A DNA stretch of 64,000 nt from an uncultured Bacteroidota bacterium (GTDB lineage Bacteria > Bacteroidota > Bacteroidia > Bacteroidales > UBA12077), in assembly GCA_913055635.1 (NCBI GenBank), contig CAJXLK010000007.1:1-64000 (forward strand), given 5' to 3'. Below are positions 37,702-49,912 of this stretch, piece by piece. The notes below the pieces were generated by a model that was not told where the DNA came from, did no database searches, and saw only the letters and a list, made by a program, of their open reading frames with translations. Position 1 is the stretch's first letter. The number at the start of each line of letters is the position of its first letter. The position numbers and the translations under genes are program-made.

Positions 37702-37989
37702 TCAGAACTTCCCCCCAAAAGATCCCGGTCTAAAAAAGTTCTTCCAGAAGAAGGAAGATCCTTCTTCCTGGGATAAAATCTTTCCCGAAAAAAAGGGAAG
37801 CTGTTCCCCTATTAACAGGTTACGTTCCCGAGAAAGGAGGGAGTGTTCCGGGGAGAGGGGCTGTTCCCGAGAAGAAGGGTTCTGTTCAGGGCTGGAATGT
37901 CCTTCACCGGATAAGGAGGATTCTTCCCCGAGAACAAAGGTTCTTTCCCCGAGAAGAAAGGTTCTGCTTACGGTATAATTCCAAATCAC
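37702..37989 (-). repeat. 21-bp tandem repeat array (possibly coding, 95 aa, on minus strand)
   Basis: About eleven to twelve diverged 21-bp units. The best-kept unit on the plus strand is near TTCCCCGAGAAGAAAGGTTCT. The period is kept even where sequence is not, and one minus-strand frame stays open through the array (ATG at 37989) as heptads such as SRTFLLG, ERTFVLG, EESSLSG, SLLSRER. Open heptads over 95 codons could mean a real repetitive protein, or only that 21 is a multiple of three with no stop in the unit. No signal peptide or family is seen. It lies directly downstream of the radical SAM gene; 37497-37701 has no gene. Confidence 0.55.
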
Positions 37990-38008: not shown

Positions 38009-40213
38009 TCAGGAAATTTCCTCCTCCGACAACTTGAAATTAGAGAGCTCATCGGTCACAGAAAAGTTATATGCGGGGTATTCATAGAGGGGCATCCGCT
38101 CCTCGGTCTCACCCATTGAATAACCCCAGAGGTTTCGGTAATCATCGGGATCTTCTCCCATACTTACGAGTTGATCCAGATAATCGGAGATGGATTTGGA
38201 TTCGACGATGGTCACTTTACCCATTTTATGGATCATGGGGCTGTGGCGGCGGGTGGCATCGTGGTCAAACTCAAGGATTCTCCGGCCGTCGCGGGTTATT
38301 CCGATGGTACGGAAGGTACAGCTTTTACCGACTCCCGGCAGGTTCAAAACATTGCGGTCGGTACCCAGGAAGGGCACCCCGGCACGCTGCTGCAGTTCGT
38401 GCAGTTGCTCGGCCATCCTTTCGGGTTGTTCATTCAACCGGGCGATATCGTGGTAATAGTGGTGGGAAATGGCACCAAAATGTTTTTCTTCGATTTGTTC
38501 CTGAACGGAACGGGCATTGGTGGCAAAATTGTGGTAATTTTCCCGGAATCCTTTCACCGAGAAGGTATAGTAAGGGAGCACCCCGATTTGATTAAGCACC
38601 TGCCTCAACCTCGCGGCATGGCCCCGGCGGGAAGCGGCAGCCGTAAAGACCTGCTGATTGGTAACCACCCAACCGGCAGCGATGAGTTGTCTAACAGCGT
38701 GGCGGGCTTCGGGGGTAACTTCCATGGCCGATTCAAAATGGGTTTGGATGACAAACTGGCGTATGCCCACTTCACGGGCCTTCTTTTTAAATCCGGCCAG
38801 CACCTGGGTCAGTTTTTCATGGATGCGTTGGGGCAAATAAGCCGGCAAACGGGTACCCAGGCGCACGCGCAGCATCTCGGCGTGCTTTTCCCCGTCGGGC
38901 CGGGAGCGGTTATCCTGCTTTTTTTGGCGGGCCATCTCATAGACTGCATCCAGTATTCGCTCGAGCGATTTATCCGAACTCATCAGGGCATCCCCGCCGG
39001 TTATGAGGATGTCGCGCAACTGGGTGTCGCCGCGGAAATAGGCCATCAACCGCTGAAGCTTTTGAGGCCAGGACTCACCGGGCCGGAGCCGGTCCAGGTC
39101 AAAATTGAGGTGACCCCGCTGAAAATCATACATACGCTGACAGGAAGCACATAAGCCCCCGCAAGCCCGACCCATTGAATCGGGAATCAGGATGGCCACA
39201 TCCGGGTATCGGCGGTGTACATTATTGCCATCAGGCAGCAACCATCCCGCCGCATTGGGCTTGCCCGGCTCAACCTCATCCTCCTTCTCCCAGGCCGCAA
39301 TATGGCCAAACTCATCCACCAACTCCCTACTATAAATCACATAATCCCGAATCGCCTGATCAGCACCGATATAAGACCCATGCTTTCGGGTATCCAATAA
39401 AGACAGGTAATAGGGATTGATAAAAAATGGAATGCCCACCTCCTTTGCTTCATAAAGCAAGGCCATCGTCTCGGGGTCCAGCGAGTGGTCCAACATCTCA
39501 TCAAGCAATTCAGGCGAACGGATGGCAAAATGGAGATGAAACAATCGGTTATCCCACCACTCTAAAATCTTTTGGTATTTTTCCTTGCGGCTCCAGGTAG
39601 GATCCAGTACAAAAGTGGAACTAGTCAGGGTACCCGCCTCGATCTTCTTAATAAAAAGGTTGATGATGCGGGTTTTATTCTTTCGACGGATGTTGATCAC
39701 CTCTTCGTCCAGCCCCGAAGGATGGCGATCCATCCATTCCATCACTTTCTCCTGATCGGGCAGGTGACGAATGGCACGCCCGTTAAACTGTCTGAAAAGA
39801 TGCAACATATCCCTGAAAAAAGCGGGGCCGGCACCTCCCCTTCCATAGCGAACGGCCAGCCATAACAACCGGAAAGGTTGATTGATGAATCGCTCCCCGC
39901 GTAAATTGGGATCTATATAATCCCGCCCTTCATGATCAATATAATCCAAAATCCGTATGGCCGCCATATCACTCCAACTAAGTTTGAGATAGGCATCACG
40001 GCCATGGGCATGGCCCGAATAATACTGAAGCGCCATCGAATCCCGTTCCAGACAATCCAATACCCATTTGCGCAAACTGGCATACAGCTGACTTTCAATG
40101 GTGCTATCAATTAAAATGTTCTCCAGCCCGGGATTTTCTTCCATCAACCGGTGAACCAACCGCTCCGATTCAGGAGTGATTCTGACCTGTTCAAATTTAC
40201 TTTTCTTTCTCAT
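38009..40213 (-). CDS. Long KamA-family radical SAM protein (lysine 2,3-aminomutase-like)
   Basis: 734 residues from the ATG at 40213 (MRKKSKFEQVR). The centre holds the radical SAM cluster motif CGGLCASC (Cys-x3-Cys-x2-Cys) and ITGGDALMSSDKSLERIL, which matches the GGD block of lysine 2,3-aminomutase. The C-terminal part has VLPYYTFSVKGFRENYHNF and VLNLPGVGKSCTFRTIG. The roughly 320-residue N-terminal domain is much longer than in KamA, which is about 420 in all. A clear PLP-lysine motif is not visible, so mutase activity on lysine is unproven. Long KamA-like proteins seem to be recurrent in Bacteroidota. Not in an obvious operon. Confidence 0.75.
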   Translation of the reverse strand: MRKKSKFEQVRITPESERLVHRLMEENPGLENILIDSTIESQLYASLRKWVLDCLERDSMALQYYSGHAHGRDAYLKLSWSDMAAIRILDYIDHEGRDYIDPNLRGERFINQPFRLLWLAVRYGRGGAGPAFFRDMLHLFRQFNGRAIRHLPDQEKVMEWMDRHPSGLDEEVINIRRKNKTRIINLFIKKIEAGTLTSSTFVLDPTWSRKEKYQKILEWWDNRLFHLHFAIRSPELLDEMLDHSLDPETMALLYEAKEVGIPFFINPYYLSLLDTRKHGSYIGADQAIRDYVIYSRELVDEFGHIAAWEKEDEVEPGKPNAAGWLLPDGNNVHRRYPDVAILIPDSMGRACGGLCASCQRMYDFQRGHLNFDLDRLRPGESWPQKLQRLMAYFRGDTQLRDILITGGDALMSSDKSLERILDAVYEMARQKKQDNRSRPDGEKHAEMLRVRLGTRLPAYLPQRIHEKLTQVLAGFKKKAREVGIRQFVIQTHFESAMEVTPEARHAVRQLIAAGWVVTNQQVFTAAASRRGHAARLRQVLNQIGVLPYYTFSVKGFRENYHNFATNARSVQEQIEEKHFGAISHHYYHDIARLNEQPERMAEQLHELQQRAGVPFLGTDRNVLNLPGVGKSCTFRTIGITRDGRRILEFDHDATRRHSPMIHKMGKVTIVESKSISDYLDQLVSMGEDPDDYRNLWGYSMGETEERMPLYEYPAYNFSVTDELSNFKLSEEEIS

Positions 40214-41317: not shown

Positions 41318-42661
41318 ATGGCAAAAAGAAATGTAATCATTCTTGGAGCAGCCGGAAGGGACTTCCACAACTTTAACACATACTTCCGTGGCAACAGCGA
41401 ATTTAATGTTGTAGCCTTCACCGCGGCTCAGATACCCGACATTGAAGGAAGGAAATATCCCGCCAGTCTTGCCGGGGAAGGTCTTTATCCTGAAGGAATT
41501 CCCATTTATGCGGAGGAAGATTTGCCAAGGCTGATCAAAGACTTCAACGTAGATGACTGTGTCTTTTCATACAGCGATGTACCCTACCAGCATGTAATGC
41601 ATGTCAGTTCGATTGTTCATAATGCAGGGGCCAATTTCATGCTGCTGGGACCCAAAGATACGATGATCAAGAGCAACAAGCCTGTTATTTCAGTAGGTGC
41701 GGTTCGCACGGGTTGCGGCAAGAGCCAGACTTCAAGAAAGGTCATTGAGACCCTGATGGAAAAAGGCCTTCGGGTTGTAGCCATCCGTCACCCCATGCCG
41801 TATGGTGATTTGGAAAAACAGAAGGTACAGCGTTTCGCCACCCTGGAAGACCTCAAAAAACATGACTGCACCATCGAAGAGATGGAAGAGTATGAGCCCC
41901 ATATTGTCCGGGGCAATGTCATATACGCCGGGGTGGATTATGAAGCCATTCTGCGTGAGGCCGAGAATGATCCGGACGGCTGCGATGTGATCCTGTGGGA
42001 TGGCGGAAACAATGACTTCCCCTTTTATCAATCGGATCTTTCCATTACCGTGACCGATCCGCACCGGGCCGGCCATGAGCTGAATTATTTCCCCGGTGAA
42101 GTCAACTTAAGGCAAGCCGACGTAGTGGTGATCAACAAAATTGACAGCTCCCATCCCGAAGACATTCAGACCGTCAGGGAAAATATTGCCAAGGTGAATC
42201 CCGATGCTACTGTAGTAGATGGGGCCTCGCCCATTAATGTCGACGACATTTCGGTAATCAAAAACAAGCGGGTTCTGGTAGTAGAAGACGGCCCGACCCT
42301 GACTCATGGCGAGATGAAGATCGGTGCCGGCACGGTAGCTGCCCAGAAATTCGGCGCTTCCCAGATCATTGATCCCCGCCCCTACACCGTAGGACGCCTG
42401 CAGGAGACTTTCAAGACCTATCCCAACATCGGCGCCCTGCTGCCAGCAATGGGCTATGGAGAGGAACAAATCAAAGACCTCGAAAAAACCATCAACAAAA
42501 CCGATTGCGACAGCGTTATCATCGGCACCCCCATCGATCTGAACCGGGTGGTCAACATCAAAAAACCCAACACCCGCGTTTACTATGACCTCGATGAAAT
42601 AGGCAAACCCGATATGGACGGGCTGTTGGACGAATTTCTCCAAAAACACCAGCTTAAATAG
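41318..42661 (+). CDS. Cyclic 2,3-diphosphoglycerate synthetase-family GTPase/ligase
   Basis: 447 residues. N-terminal Rossmann-like part (IILGAAGRDFHNFN), then a P-loop domain: VGAVRTGCGKSQTSRKVIETL (Walker A variant), VILWDGGNNDFPFY and VVVINKID (an NKxD-type base-specificity motif). This layout is that of proteins annotated as cyclic 2,3-diphosphoglycerate synthetase. In hyperthermophilic methanogens the enzyme makes the solute cDPG from 2,3-DPG with ATP. In mesophilic Bacteroidota the substrate is not established, and other roles (a metallochaperone-like GTPase) are possible. Well isolated: own promoter side, and a strong terminator follows. Confidence 0.8.
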   Translation: MAKRNVIILGAAGRDFHNFNTYFRGNSEFNVVAFTAAQIPDIEGRKYPASLAGEGLYPEGIPIYAEEDLPRLIKDFNVDDCVFSYSDVPYQHVMHVSSIVHNAGANFMLLGPKDTMIKSNKPVISVGAVRTGCGKSQTSRKVIETLMEKGLRVVAIRHPMPYGDLEKQKVQRFATLEDLKKHDCTIEEMEEYEPHIVRGNVIYAGVDYEAILREAENDPDGCDVILWDGGNNDFPFYQSDLSITVTDPHRAGHELNYFPGEVNLRQADVVVINKIDSSHPEDIQTVRENIAKVNPDATVVDGASPINVDDISVIKNKRVLVVEDGPTLTHGEMKIGAGTVAAQKFGASQIIDPRPYTVGRLQETFKTYPNIGALLPAMGYGEEQIKDLEKTINKTDCDSVIIGTPIDLNRVVNIKKPNTRVYYDLDEIGKPDMDGLLDEFLQKHQLK

Positions 42662-44602: not shown

Positions 44603-45769
44603 ATGCTCGATTTCAACGATACAAAGATAGCATTTCAAAGCAAAAGTAACAGAGACCTGCGACAGGCACATTTTTTGTTTAACACCCTGGCCCGGCCCAT
44701 CGTGGTTAAGACGGGCAAATTATTTTTAAATGTGGCCCTGGCCATCCATTTTCCGATCAAATGGGTGGTCAAACCCACCGTTTACAAGCACTTTTGCGGG
44801 GGGGAGATCATCAGCGAATGCGACCCGGTGGTCCATAAGATGGCCCGCTATGGGGTAGAATCGATATTGGATTACTCGGTGGAAGGCAAGGAGAATGAGG
44901 CCGACATCCAGGCTGCCCTGGAAGAGACCCTGCGCACCATTGACAATGCCGGCGGCAATGAACATATTCCCTTTGCCGTATTTAAACCCACGGCTTTTGG
45001 CCGAAGCCAGGTCCTGGAAAAAGCCAGCAACGGAGAAAACCTGACCCAGCAGGATAAGCAGGATCTGGAGCGTTTCCGCGAGCGAATCCATCGCCTTTGC
45101 CAGCGGGCGTATCAAAAAGATGTCCCCATTTTGATCGATGCCGAAGAGGTGGCCTACCAAAACATCATTGACCAGGTGGTGCGCGAAAACATGCGCCTGT
45201 TTAACCTCAAAAAAGCCATCGTTTTCAACACCCTGCAAATGTACCGGTGGGATCGCCTGGAATTCCTGCGCCAAGAGGTTGAAGTGGCCGAAAAAGAAGA
45301 CTATGTCTTTGGAGCCAAATTCGTTCGCGGGGCATATATGGAAAAAGAACGTGAATGGGCCCGGCTTTACGGTTATACTTCCCCCATCCAGCCCGACAAA
45401 GAAAGTACCGACCGCGATTATGACGCAGCCCTGAAATACTCTGTTGAGCACATCTCCCACGTAGCCATCTTCAACGGCACCCATAATGAGAACAGTTCCC
45501 GTTACCTGGCCGAGCTCATGGAGCAACACAACCTGGCCAAAGATGACCCGCGCATCTATTTTAGCCAACTCTACGGGATGAGCGACCACATCAGCTTTAA
45601 CCTGGCCCATGAAGGCTACCGCGTGGCCAAATACCTGCCCTACGGTCCCGTCAAAAATGTCATGCCCTACCTGATCAGAAGAGCAGAAGAAAATACTGCT
45701 GTAGCCGGCCAGACCAACAGGGAACTTGAACTGATCAAAAAAGAATTGAAAAGACGCAAGACCTCATAA
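44603..45769 (+). CDS. Proline dehydrogenase
   Basis: 388 residues, the length of stand-alone PRODH. FAD-barrel features: FAVFKPTAFGRSQVLEKAS, VPILIDAEEVAYQNII, VFNTLQMYRWDRLEFL, and the signature GAKFVRGAYMEKEREW with conserved Arg and Tyr. Late blocks FNGTHNENSSRYLAELM and SQLYGMSDHISFNLAHEGYRVAKYLPYGPVKNVMPYLIRRAEEN fit the family. It oxidises L-proline to 1-pyrroline-5-carboxylate and passes electrons to quinone at the inner membrane. The P5C dehydrogenase partner is not in the window. The next gene (12-bp gap) is a small membrane protein likely on the same transcript. Confidence 0.9.
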   Translation: MLDFNDTKIAFQSKSNRDLRQAHFLFNTLARPIVVKTGKLFLNVALAIHFPIKWVVKPTVYKHFCGGEIISECDPVVHKMARYGVESILDYSVEGKENEADIQAALEETLRTIDNAGGNEHIPFAVFKPTAFGRSQVLEKASNGENLTQQDKQDLERFRERIHRLCQRAYQKDVPILIDAEEVAYQNIIDQVVRENMRLFNLKKAIVFNTLQMYRWDRLEFLRQEVEVAEKEDYVFGAKFVRGAYMEKEREWARLYGYTSPIQPDKESTDRDYDAALKYSVEHISHVAIFNGTHNENSSRYLAELMEQHNLAKDDPRIYFSQLYGMSDHISFNLAHEGYRVAKYLPYGPVKNVMPYLIRRAEENTAVAGQTNRELELIKKELKRRKTS

Positions 45770-46523: not shown

Positions 46524-47594
46524 TCACACCACCTTTTTGGCGATATACTGTGAACTGAGGATGGTAAGGGCACCCATATAGTTGATCTTAAAGGGCAGCA
46601 AATCGCCGACCCGGTATTGAGGTTTATGCGGGCCTAAATCCACCACAATCATATCCGAGCTGGCGCCGGTAATTTCGATTTGATCGTCGAGGGGCTCAAT
46701 ATTTTGAGGATCAATATCCAGCAAACCGATATCCAGAATGGCCCGATAGGAGGTTTTGCCGTAGTTGCCTTCGTCAAACTCCTTGACCTCCCCGGCCACA
46801 TTTTCTCCGATCTCACCGATCGGAACCACCGGTTTTTCTGTAAGTTCAATGATCTCGGCGTTCAACCTGAAAATATCCTGTTCCATCTCCTCAATGTCCT
46901 CTCCGGTAAACAGGTTGTTGCCAAAAAACAGGGTTTCCCCGATGCGAAAATGGCTAATGCCTTCGGGCAGCACATTCTTATAGAGCAACTCCAGGGTGAC
47001 CGATGATCCGCCTGAAACATAAGGAATGTTGCGTTTAAACCGGGCCTCGATCAATTGCTCATAAAGGCTCAGCTGAATCAGTTTATCATGGCTGGGCATC
47101 ACCCCGTTCAAGCAGTTCAGATTGGCCCCGATGCCCACCACCTCAATATTGGGAAGCTTGAAAATTTTCCCGTAAAAATCGATAAATTCATCGCCAAGGA
47201 CCCCTTCCCGCAGGTCGCCCATTTCAATCATGATGATGACCTTGTGGGTTTTGTTCTGGCGCTGGGCTTCCTCAGAAAGCAACTTGATGGTATAATACTC
47301 GGTATTGAAGCTGATGTCGGCATAGCGCACTACGCTTTTGATGCTCCGCTTGGAAGGAGGCCTGATGTAGGCCGTTTCAATGCCTTCATCGATGCTTTTA
47401 ACCGCTTTCAAATTATACATGCGGGAGTCCAGGATCTGGTCCACTCCCATATCGATCACTTCCTTAAGGAACTCTTTGTTACCGGAAAGCACCTTGGAGA
47501 CAATTCCAAGTTTGATGTTGTTTTTTCCCAGTAAATCTTTAAGGTATTGATAATTATGGTGAAGTTTTGCGCGATTTAATTCTACGAATGCCAT
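46524..47594 (-). CDS. Alanine/ornithine racemase-family PLP protein
   Basis: 356 residues of the fold-type III (TIM barrel) PLP family. The PLP-binding Lys is in KLGIVSKVLSGN (about Lys34), and later blocks VIIMIEMGDLREGV and VSGGSSVTLELL bind PLP phosphate. It lacks the usual alanine racemase block (KANAYGHG) that its neighbour has, and its sequence is closer to the ornithine-racemase-like group. It is 8 bp from alanine racemase and so co-transcribed. Likely substrate: ornithine or another amino acid used for D-residues in cell-wall or metabolite synthesis, but this is not proven. Confidence 0.7.
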   Translation of the reverse strand: MAFVELNRAKLHHNYQYLKDLLGKNNIKLGIVSKVLSGNKEFLKEVIDMGVDQILDSRMYNLKAVKSIDEGIETAYIRPPSKRSIKSVVRYADISFNTEYYTIKLLSEEAQRQNKTHKVIIMIEMGDLREGVLGDEFIDFYGKIFKLPNIEVVGIGANLNCLNGVMPSHDKLIQLSLYEQLIEARFKRNIPYVSGGSSVTLELLYKNVLPEGISHFRIGETLFFGNNLFTGEDIEEMEQDIFRLNAEIIELTEKPVVPIGEIGENVAGEVKEFDEGNYGKTSYRAILDIGLLDIDPQNIEPLDDQIEITGASSDMIVVDLGPHKPQYRVGDLLPFKINYMGALTILSSQYIAKKVV

Positions 47595-47602
47595 AGTACA
47601 AG

Positions 47603-48757
47603 TTATTGATTCATAATCGCCCTTGGAATATCCAGGGGCAAACGAGCCAGAAGCTCATAGTTCAATTGATTGTTAAAATCGGCGAATGAAGCCAGTGTGA
47701 TGGACACCCCGTCCTGGTCACCGATAAGCACCACTTCATCGCCCTTTTTCACGTCGGGGACCTGGGTAACGTCGGCCACCAGCATATTCATATTGACAAT
47801 CCCGATAACCGGCACACGGTGGCCGTCGATCAAAACCCGCCCCTGGTTGCTCAGCGACCTGCTGTAGCCATGGGAATATCCCACCGGGACGATGGCGATG
47901 GTTTTCTCCTCCTGGGCCATATAGTAGGTGCCATAACTGACAAATTCACCGGGTTTGACTTTCTTGATGCTCATCACCTGACTTTTCCAGCTCAAGACCC
48001 TTTTCAGGACATCCGACTTTTCCATGCGTTTGTGGACAAAGTGGATAAACGTCTCGGGGCTGGGCCAGAAGCCATACTGAAGGATGCCAATGCGCACCAT
48101 ATCCATCCGGGTCCGGGGATAAGCAATGGCGGCAGCAGAGCAGGCAGTATGGCGCAGTTCCGGGTGTATGCCGCGGTTGGTGATCCATTTATAGATGCGG
48201 TTGTACTTTTTGATCTGCTTTTGCACGCGCACATGGTTGGCGATGCTTTCAGCCCCGGCATAATGGGTACACAATCCACGCACACGGAAATATTGCTCGT
48301 TGGAAGTGATCAGCTTGACTACCTTGTGAAGGGCCTGCTGACTGAACCCGGTCCGGTTCATACCGGTCTCAACCTCCAGATGAATAATGGCCCGGGTGTT
48401 GTATTGACGGGCATAATCAAGGGCCGTTTCCAGTTTTTCCTGTTCAAAGACGAAAAACTCCACACCGCTGCGCACGGCCCATTCCAAATCATCATCGCTC
48501 ATCCAGCCCATCACCATGATATCGGAGGTAGGCTGTTTGATTTGATACACCCGATGGGCTTCATCACCACTGAAAACGGAAAAATGCTGCACACCGGCCT
48601 CCTCAGCAATCGGGATAAATTGCTCAATGCCATGGCCGTAAGCATTGGCCTTAACGACAGATGAAATTTTCACCTGCTCGCCGAGATAACTCTGTAAAAA
48701 CGTAAGGTTATGGATCAATGCAGCTTTATTGATCTCAATACGAGAAGTTGCGGCCAT
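47603..48757 (-). CDS. alr: Alanine racemase
   Basis: 384 residues. PLP Lys in SSVVKANAYGHGIEQF, the second catalytic Tyr side near EFVSYGTYYMAQEEKT, then IAIVPVGYSHGYSRSLSNQG. The C-terminal beta domain is complete. It makes D-alanine for peptidoglycan. It is the middle gene of a tight three-gene operon: the M20 amidohydrolase starts it (12-bp gap) and the ornithine-racemase-like protein follows. Bacteroidota often carry an alr fused to murF, so a free-standing alr in an operon with a second racemase suggests a special role beyond the basic need for D-alanine. Confidence 0.88.
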   Translation of the reverse strand: MAATSRIEINKAALIHNLTFLQSYLGEQVKISSVVKANAYGHGIEQFIPIAEEAGVQHFSVFSGDEAHRVYQIKQPTSDIMVMGWMSDDDLEWAVRSGVEFFVFEQEKLETALDYARQYNTRAIIHLEVETGMNRTGFSQQALHKVVKLITSNEQYFRVRGLCTHYAGAESIANHVRVQKQIKKYNRIYKWITNRGIHPELRHTACSAAAIAYPRTRMDMVRIGILQYGFWPSPETFIHFVHKRMEKSDVLKRVLSWKSQVMSIKKVKPGEFVSYGTYYMAQEEKTIAIVPVGYSHGYSRSLSNQGRVLIDGHRVPVIGIVNMNMLVADVTQVPDVKKGDEVVLIGDQDGVSITLASFADFNNQLNYELLARLPLDIPRAIMNQ

Positions 48758-48769
48758 AATATACGGTGC

Positions 48770-49912
48770 TTATTTTAAATAATGCCGGTAAATGCCATAA
48801 AATATCCTTATTCCGGGTTCGATGATCTCCTCGGGAAAGTCGTAATCGGGATTGTGCAATTGCGGGGTATGTTCACCAGAACCCAACCCAAAAAGCACCC
48901 CGGGGTATTTGAGGGTAAAATTGGAAAAATCCTCCGACCATCGCAGGGGTGCATCGAGTTCAACCATTGGGGCCCGTTCTTTCCTTGCCACCTCCCGAAG
49001 CATCTCCAGTTCGGCGTTGTCATTGACCGTAGCCGGGAAAGCCTCCCGCCAGGAGATTTCATTTTCCAGGGAATGGGAACGGGCATGTTGCTGGACAATA
49101 TCCACGGCCCGGGAGGTGAGTTGATCCATGTCAGGATTGGAGTAAGTTCGGAGGGTGGCCATTACCTCGGCGTAACCGGGGGTTGTACCGAAGGCTATTT
49201 CGCCAAGGCGGGCATGGATCACCGTAATCAGGGCAAAATCCTCAAAAGACCAATTTTGAGGCAGCCAGGTGAGGTCGCGGACAATATCGGCCATGGCAAT
49301 ACCCGGTGAGCGGCCGTTTTCAGGTTCACCCGCATGGGCGGTCTTCCCATAAAGCTGAGAGACCATTCCCTTAGAGGCCGCTGCAAAAGTGCCGGATTTC
49401 AAAACCACTGAGCCTGCTGCATATCCGGGCAAATTATGCAGGGCAAAAACCTTATCGGGGGCAATCTGGGGGAACCTTTCATCCTCAAGGACCCGCCGGG
49501 CTCCCTGCCCATTCTCCTCCGAGGGCTGATACAGCAAAATGGCCCTGCCCCGCCTGGGGCGGTTGGCGGAAATGGCCATCGATAACCCGTTCATGATCGC
49601 CATATGACCATCGTGCCCGCACTTATGCGCCCGGCCCTGATGCTGCGAACGATAGGCCAGGTCATTGACCTCCTCTATTGGCAGGGCATCCAGATCACAT
49701 CTGAACAAAAGAGCCGGCCCCGGCTCTTGGCCTTCATATACCGCAGCCAATCCAGCCCCGCCGAGCTGCTCAATCAACTGATCGGGTTGATCATCCATCA
49801 ACAAACGCTTGACCCGCCCGGCGGTTTGGTGCTCCTGGCCAGACAACTCAGGATGCCGGTGAAGAAGCCTCCTGAGTTCTACCAATCTGGCTTTGTCGTA
49901 AAAAATTTCCAT
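48770..49912 (-). CDS. M20D-family amidohydrolase/peptidase
   Basis: 380 residues. Metal-binding blocks FRCDLDALPIEEV, HKCGHDGHMAIM and YQPSEENGQGARRVLE are those of the M20D subfamily (hippurate hydrolase, IAA-amino-acid hydrolase, N-acetyl-diaminopimelate deacetylase). The central dimerisation insert (SQLYGKTAHAGEPENGRSP) is present. It removes N-acyl groups from amino acids in the cytoplasm. Being first in the operon with two racemases, it may free an amino acid which the racemases then invert. Specificity cannot be given. No signal peptide. Confidence 0.8.
   Translation of the reverse strand: MEIFYDKARLVELRRLLHRHPELSGQEHQTAGRVKRLLMDDQPDQLIEQLGGAGLAAVYEGQEPGPALLFRCDLDALPIEEVNDLAYRSQHQGRAHKCGHDGHMAIMNGLSMAISANRPRRGRAILLYQPSEENGQGARRVLEDERFPQIAPDKVFALHNLPGYAAGSVVLKSGTFAAASKGMVSQLYGKTAHAGEPENGRSPGIAMADIVRDLTWLPQNWSFEDFALITVIHARLGEIAFGTTPGYAEVMATLRTYSNPDMDQLTSRAVDIVQQHARSHSLENEISWREAFPATVNDNAELEMLREVARKERAPMVELDAPLRWSEDFSNFTLKYPGVLFGLGSGEHTPQLHNPDYDFPEEIIEPGIRIFYGIYRHYLK

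Follow-up and report, generated by a model that had tools for sequence, protein, structure and literature searches.

The window, i.e. the whole stretch of 64,000 nucleotides analysed here, carries on its minus strand (38009-40213) an open frame of 734 aa counted from an ATG. A GTG 42 bases upstream offers an alternative start and would give 748 aa, and the alignment places the same start methionine in the closest relative, L021. An earlier note, made by inspection of the letters, had described the product as a protein resembling lysine aminomutase with the radical SAM core motifs CGGLCASC and ITGGDALMSSD, both of which were found in the translation. The gene and its features are as follows:

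38009..40213, minus strand: long aminomutase-like radical SAM gene, 734 aa (frame, relatives and the start common with L021)
39686..40213, minus strand: N-terminal extension, residues 1-176, mostly helical (predicted structure; no KamA match before residue 177)
38225..39685, minus strand: KamA-like catalytic part, residues 177-663 (structural match to 2a5h)
39179..39313, minus strand: residues 301-345, including the acidic loop AWEKEDEVEPGKPNAAGW; highest conservation among the binned stretches (mean 0.85)
39206..39211, minus strand: R335-Y336, columns of KamA R112-Y113 (alignments)
39140..39163, minus strand: CX3CX2C cluster cysteines C351, C355 and C358 (motif and alignments)
39134..39136, minus strand: R360, column of KamA R134 (alignments)
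38990..38998, minus strand: GGD motif, residues 406-408 (motif and alignment)
38552..38554, minus strand: K554, column of KamA D293 (alignments)
38372..38473, minus strand: variable insert, spanning about residues 581-614, that separates K554 from the PLP lysine and is lacking in KamA and in FAM2, the second long family (lysine-to-lysine spacing)
38324..38344, minus strand: N624-L-P-G-V-G-K630, with N624 in the KamA D330 column and K630 as the PLP lysine (alignments)

An acyl carrier protein phosphodiesterase gene precedes it on this strand at a distance of 78 bases, and the other neighbours in the window encode a CobW-like protein, 3-dehydroquinate synthase, proline dehydrogenase and ornithine/alanine-racemase-like proteins. 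As a guide to the substrate these neighbours were rejected, given that they recur only beside L021, within its 9.9 kb. The plus-strand gene at 41318-42661 encodes a 447-aa protein that matches CobW weakly and for which NCBIfam gave nothing up to E 0.01. At 46524-49912 on the minus strand, genes for an ornithine-racemase-like protein (332 of 480 bits), an alanine racemase and an M20 peptidase form a run, which lies 0.8 kb beyond the proline dehydrogenase gene (44603-45769). Just 3' of the stop codon, at window positions 37817-37973, there are four degenerate direct repeats of 36 bases (64-100% to the reference copy). No Rfam family reached its gathering score between 36000 and 46500, which leaves the idea of a regulatory RNA unsupported.

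One scan of a genome collection returned relatives at 25 loci, 48-71% identical over the best segment. Of these, 24 carry titles of Bacteroidota or of unassigned bacteria, and the remaining one lies on an Aminicenantes MAG contig (L009). Two long families are distinguished here: FAM1, the family of the window gene with frames of about 700-780 aa, and FAM2 with frames of 601-692 aa. When 198 genomes of the order were sampled, 43 had a FAM1 copy or large fragment of at least 500 bits; some of the places counted are fragments (G347, G473, G481). FAM2 members occurred in eight of these genomes, both families in two (G333, G444) and either family in 49. The phylum-wide draw yielded FAM1 in 6/296 and FAM2 in 2/296 genomes, with the window's own genome included in both the order and the phylum set. 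Relatives occur in gut Bacteroides as well as in sediment bacteria, and two FAM1 genes can share a genome, in tandem (L003) or apart on contigs C14 and C3 (G465). Two NCBI entries named 'KamA family protein' fall among the FAM1 rows, one from Parabacteroides distasonis (WP_009275016.1, 53.6% identical) and one from Bacteroides finegoldii (WP_237922996.1, 54.1% identical and also part of our 47-row tree); both records give the family name as sole function and are listed as plasmids. A search of openly licensed papers, judged by title and the start of the abstract, for KamA or radical SAM aminomutases in Bacteroid* showed none on FAM1 among the papers listed, which is weak evidence.

The AlphaFold model, built on an alignment of 23 rows, reached a mean pLDDT of 83.4 and a pTM of 0.89. 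Compared with known structures by VIA-align, it matched the lysine 2,3-aminomutase of C. subterminale best (2a5h; Z 22.7, next entry 9.8), with 334 residues aligned at an rmsd of 2.8 (model 177-663 versus chain 3-392). A Foldseek search with the full model led to the KamA fold at E about 1e-12, and on the basis of the 2a5h match this fold is assigned to the predicted model. The four best NCBIfam models of the KamA group match from residue 215-220 onward and the structural match begins at residue 177, so that the foreign N-terminal part amounts to about 176 residues instead of the roughly 320 residues of unknown function estimated at first. This extension can be aligned with FAM2 from residue 16 (hhalign). 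When it was predicted alone, Foldseek returned no match with E <= 0.001 and VIA-align none at Z >= 5 among 570 chains; such null searches do not amount to a new fold.

Two stretches of the model with low confidence, 307-332 with the acidic loop (pLDDT below 50) and 346-373 with the cluster loop, fall in the best conserved of the binned stretches (means 0.85 and 0.84), and the acidic loop aligns poorly to KamA. The distance from K554 to K630 is 76 residues in the window protein and in 17/19 FAM1 rows (84 and 86 in the other two) versus 44 in 2a5h and in the nine FAM2 rows listed, from which FAM2_L109 was left out with a PLP motif reading NVPRLGK. FAM1 therefore has an insert of about 32 residues.

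No aminomutase family model that matches the protein does so above its curated cut-off. The KamA family model TIGR00238 gave 146.6 bits against a cut-off of 199.2, which the two FAM2 proteins scanned do pass (346.5 and 329.1 bits); the other marks of this family, the CX3CX2C motif, a PLP lysine equivalent to K337 and, in the predicted model, the KamA fold, are present. All equivalog models stayed under their cut-offs, namely glutamate 2,3-aminomutase Eam (TIGR04368) with 110.6 of 650 bits, lysine 2,3-aminomutase (TIGR03820) with 97.9 of 525.4, arginine 2,3-aminomutase BlsG (TIGR04468) with 82.1 of 600, and EpmB (TIGR03821) with 61.8 of 369.3. The large distance to the Eam cut-off speaks against the reading as a glutamate-type aminomutase. 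The glutamate model had the top equivalog score in all seven long proteins scanned, with a narrow lead over the lysine model in FAM1 (110.6 versus 97.9 bits for the window protein, 107.1 versus 102.2 for L021) and a clearer one in FAM2 (237 versus 182 and 230 versus 177 bits). Pfam had no match to the window protein up to E 0.1, and no Eam protein over the TIGR04368 cut-off was found in the 148 genomes of the phylum draw that were scanned.

In the 47-row tree, FAM1 (support 100/100), FAM2 (100/99) and the union of both (100/99) each form a group, and the KamA/AblA, BlsG, AblA-like and EpmB rows lie on a different side of the tree (97/84). A phylogeny against KamA and EpmB had been suggested in the earlier note, and it puts FAM1 outside both, with the BlsG rows likewise apart; the tree contains no Eam sequence, so nearness of the long families to Eam is not readable from it. 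The KamA/AblA rows do not form one clade, and long branches lead to the C58 protein of the window's own genome, L045, EpmB and L087b. The long branch of L045, a KamA-like protein of 512 aa (G196) whose substrate columns read H/N, groups with the long families (97/73). Profile comparison by hhalign aligned FAM1 with FAM2 over residues 16-698, including most of the N-terminal part, with a probability of 100 and an E-value of 2.5e-56.

That FAM1 proteins might act like EpmB on a protein residue or an aminoacyl carrier, using the N-terminal part as a partner-binding domain, would suit the extra domain and the lack of a conserved operon. The score for the EpmB model and a position in the tree far from EpmB and its own long branch make this very improbable, the more so as no partner gene recurs at most loci.

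Regarding the active site, the earlier note had seen no plain PLP-lysine motif. It is present as K630 in NLPGVGK, invariant in 23/23 and 70/70 rows: the sequence R-N-V-L-N-L-P-G-V-G-K630-S is the counterpart of V-V-D-A-P-G-G-G-G-K337 in KamA and one residue shorter, which brings K630 one residue closer to N624 than in KamA and explains the gap at the PLP lysine in the alignment. The cysteines C125, C129 and C132 of 2a5h align with C351, C355 and C358. R360 occupies the column of R134, which we take to bind the alpha-carboxylate of the substrate, and R335-Y336 those of R112/Y113, presumably residues on the PLP side. K554, N624 and K630 are invariant in 23/23 rows of alignment A1, in 30/30 rows when two FAM2 rows are added, and in 70/70 rows of a larger set (60 FAM1 and 10 FAM2). 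Only frames above 450 aa with C..[LI]C..CQR entered the 70-row set, and rows with identical last 450 residues were merged; the counts for the cysteines and R360 in it are therefore selected for, whereas A1 and the 30-row set are unfiltered. The partial L009 and L025 were left out of both A1 and the 70-row set, and L018 was left out of A1.

In the SFLD paper (PMC3965090), two aspartates of lysine 2,3-aminomutases are described as binding lysine, and Lys plus Asn, found throughout the glutamate 2,3-aminomutases, are associated with the binding of glutamate. By this definition, K554 and N624 are the Eam pair. Their register is consistent in the profile alignments: the one made with six KamA/BlsG-type proteins keeps this register up to its end at residue 553, directly in front of K554, and in the FAM2 profile the family's own lysine (in MKG) aligns with the KamA aspartate. 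The D293/D330 columns read D/D in seven KamA/AblA rows, two AblA-like rows and L092, D/T in two BlsG rows and D/E in E. coli EpmB; elsewhere they read Q/D (L068), H/N (L045), R/S (L087b and L090) and R/Q (the C58 protein). Since basic or odd residues thus stand at these columns in other KamA-like rows, the K/N pair does not predict the substrate uniquely. Where KamA has R116, the 70 rows have V (58), I (10), A (1) or T (1), which is a point against the glutamate-type reading.

These residues bear on two further explanations. A divergent lysine 2,3-aminomutase would fit the fold and the closest solved structure, yet the replacement of the Asp pair by K and N in 70/70 rows, together with a score far under the TIGR03820 cut-off and a place apart from the KamA/AblA rows, makes it scarcely credible, and the earlier opinion that the protein is probably no lysine 2,3-aminomutase stands. 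A different radical reaction in the KamA scaffold, such as an elimination, an epimerization or another isomerization, is improbable as well: the long divergent branch, the loss of R116, the conserved acidic loop that is hard to align and the N-terminal part without a significant Foldseek match point in this direction, but the cluster cysteines, the PLP lysine, the Arg/Tyr on the PLP side and the alpha-carboxylate Arg are all kept. With the PLP lysine in place, the enzyme most likely carries out the PLP-assisted 1,2-amino shift of its relatives, but on another substrate, an acidic one. The likeness to lysine aminomutase noted at first sight has held, and the reaction of another kind proposed with it is less likely than a change of substrate. 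Two findings had been named that would tell against that proposal, a conserved PLP lysine and clustering inside KamA; the former was found and the latter was not.

The neighbours had been said to give no clue to the substrate, which is true within the window but too strict for the relatives, among which one partial clue emerged. P5C (glutamate semialdehyde) dehydrogenase makes glutamate. No general neighbour was found at 67 loci of unequal length, and the gene that recurs most often outside Tannerella, at 6/67 loci, was that for P5C dehydrogenase. It stands head-to-head with FAM1 in 6/46 FAM1 genomes (G341, G396, G397, G404, G411, G465), where the HMM matches are 329-645 bases apart. In one of ten FAM2 genomes (G384) it is the second frame downstream of FAM2. 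G397 has two P5C dehydrogenases and G465 two FAM1 genes, with one adjacent pair in each. In a quick FAM1 tree (SH-aLRT only, several open forks), the six head-to-head genomes are spread over three places; as the genomes are not independent, binomial chances were not taken as proof of a link. In 40/46 FAM1 genomes P5C dehydrogenase is not beside FAM1, including the window's own genome with its P5C dehydrogenase on another contig (C15). At E 1e-100 the enzyme is present in 42/54 genomes with FAM1 or FAM2 and absent in 11/46 FAM1 genomes. Genes read by eye as thymidylate synthase and DHFR are likewise repeated next to one FAM1 locus and two FAM2 loci, and this lessens the weight of any single neighbour.

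The main rival to glutamate as the substrate is 2-aminoadipate. The chemistry would be the same with another acidic substrate, 2-aminoadipate being converted to 3-aminoadipate or a larger acidic amino acid being used, and the extra loops would shape a longer pocket. The K/N pair requires no more than an acidic side chain, and the insert and conserved loops are unlike KamA. In L140 and L143, two FAM2 genomes that belong to a single family, a saccharopine-dehydrogenase-type gene (by eye) lies a few frames off, and a relative of it is present at one FAM1 locus (L133). We regard this alternative as unlikely, though worth keeping in view, given that such neighbours are few and named by eye only and that the P5C dehydrogenase neighbour points to glutamate.

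The K/N signature and the link to P5C dehydrogenase make glutamate the first candidate. Radical SAM/PLP aminomutase chemistry is well supported, with the predicted radical SAM barrel, the cluster motif, the PLP lysine, the putative alpha-carboxylate Arg and the K/N pair read from sequence and model. On balance, we slightly favour a stand-alone radical 2,3-aminomutase that depends on SAM and PLP and acts on glutamate or a closely similar acidic compound, a suggestion on the substrate that depends mainly on the two residues K554 and N624. The substrate, product, direction, use of the product and catalytic steps are what we infer from these features. A [4Fe-4S] cluster on C351, C355 and C358 would cleave SAM, and PLP would be held by K630 until displaced by the substrate to form an external aldimine with the acidic amino acid. 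R360 would grip the alpha-carboxylate, while K554 and N624, in place of the lysine-binding aspartates, may receive the carboxylate of the side chain. The 5'-deoxyadenosyl radical would then take a hydrogen from C3 and the amino group would migrate from C2 to C3 through the PLP adduct, followed by release of the beta-amino acid. If glutamate is the substrate, the product would be beta-glutamate, which might serve as an osmolyte or as a catabolic intermediate; the osmolyte role is no more than plausible.

Further KamA-like proteins were observed outside the long families. Contig C58 of the window's own genome (L155 9405..3594, minus strand) and L175 (8226..13722) share a run of five genes for a KamA-like radical SAM protein of 536 aa, CoA-transferase A and B, a GSA-type aminotransferase and 3-oxoadipyl-CoA thiolase; the CoA-transferases and the thiolase exceed their cut-offs and the aminotransferase is below. 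The KamA-like protein, on its long branch with R/Q at the substrate columns, has kept the PLP lysine. The run is collinear at 65-74% identity in G070 from another class, and beside nine weaker homologues only thiolase (37%) and aminotransferase (26%) matches were seen. A possible route would lead from 2-aminoadipate via 3-aminoadipate and 3-oxoadipate to succinyl-CoA and acetyl-CoA, or be a beta-lysine analogue of this; a literature search on the 2-aminoadipate route found nothing. A separate group of KamA-like proteins of about 450 aa (L157-L165), related to the C58 protein, occurs in 9/119 genomes of the class besides the own one. KamA-like matches with 23-27% identity were also seen in phages LR756500, LR756501, LR756503 and MT366761, i.e. 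very large phage genomes and a Vibrio phage, and 15 phage records have such a match in all.

To our knowledge, few PLP-dependent radical SAM aminomutase activities have been characterized. A family present in gut Bacteroides and Parabacteroides, and in 43/198 genomes of the order, thereby gains a testable substrate class. The SFLD paper describes clusters of the subgroup in which no member is annotated (PMC3965090). Beta-glutamate is known as an osmolyte, and early NMR work is said to have ruled out a glutamate aminomutase as its origin in methanogens (PMC1224877). Both eam and beta-glutamate have been placed under Na+ riboswitches (PMC9337991). Raised beta-glutamate is reported in Parkinson's and prodromal stool in another study, which also states that KEGG has one reaction for it (PMC12502400). 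Stool levels correlated there with Methanobrevibacter smithii and Clostridium, and negatively with Prevotella copri (PMC12502400), so that no link to Bacteroidales is claimed. We tentatively suggest, as a reading that may well not hold, that FAM1 and FAM2 are related families of long radical SAM/PLP aminomutases that have gone unstudied, stand apart from the classical enzymes and carry an N-terminal domain without recognized fold, and that through them gut and sediment Bacteroidota make beta-glutamate, or a homologue of it, from a source so far overlooked.

Compared with KamA/AblA (2a5h, TIGR03820), the window protein shares the fold over residues 177-663, the CX3CX2C motif, the PLP lysine and the R112/Y113 and R134 columns. 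It differs by Lys/Asn for the lysine-binding Asp pair, the replaced R116, the N-terminal part of 176 residues, the insert of about 32 residues and the absence of Cys 268, 375 and 377, which we take to be zinc ligands. With BlsG (TIGR04468) it has the KamA-type core and the PLP lysine in common, whereas both BlsG rows read D/T at columns 293/330; with EpmB (TIGR03821) it shares the KamA-type core, whereas the E. coli protein has D/E where the window protein has K/N. It resembles Eam (TIGR04368) in the Lys/Asn pair, as described in PMC3965090, and in its highest-scoring equivalog model, a likeness drawn from the description and the model, but its 734 aa contrast with a model of 404 positions. 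The window protein is probably not a KamA and is not fileable as an Eam, but with its glutamate-type pocket it most likely works like Eam.
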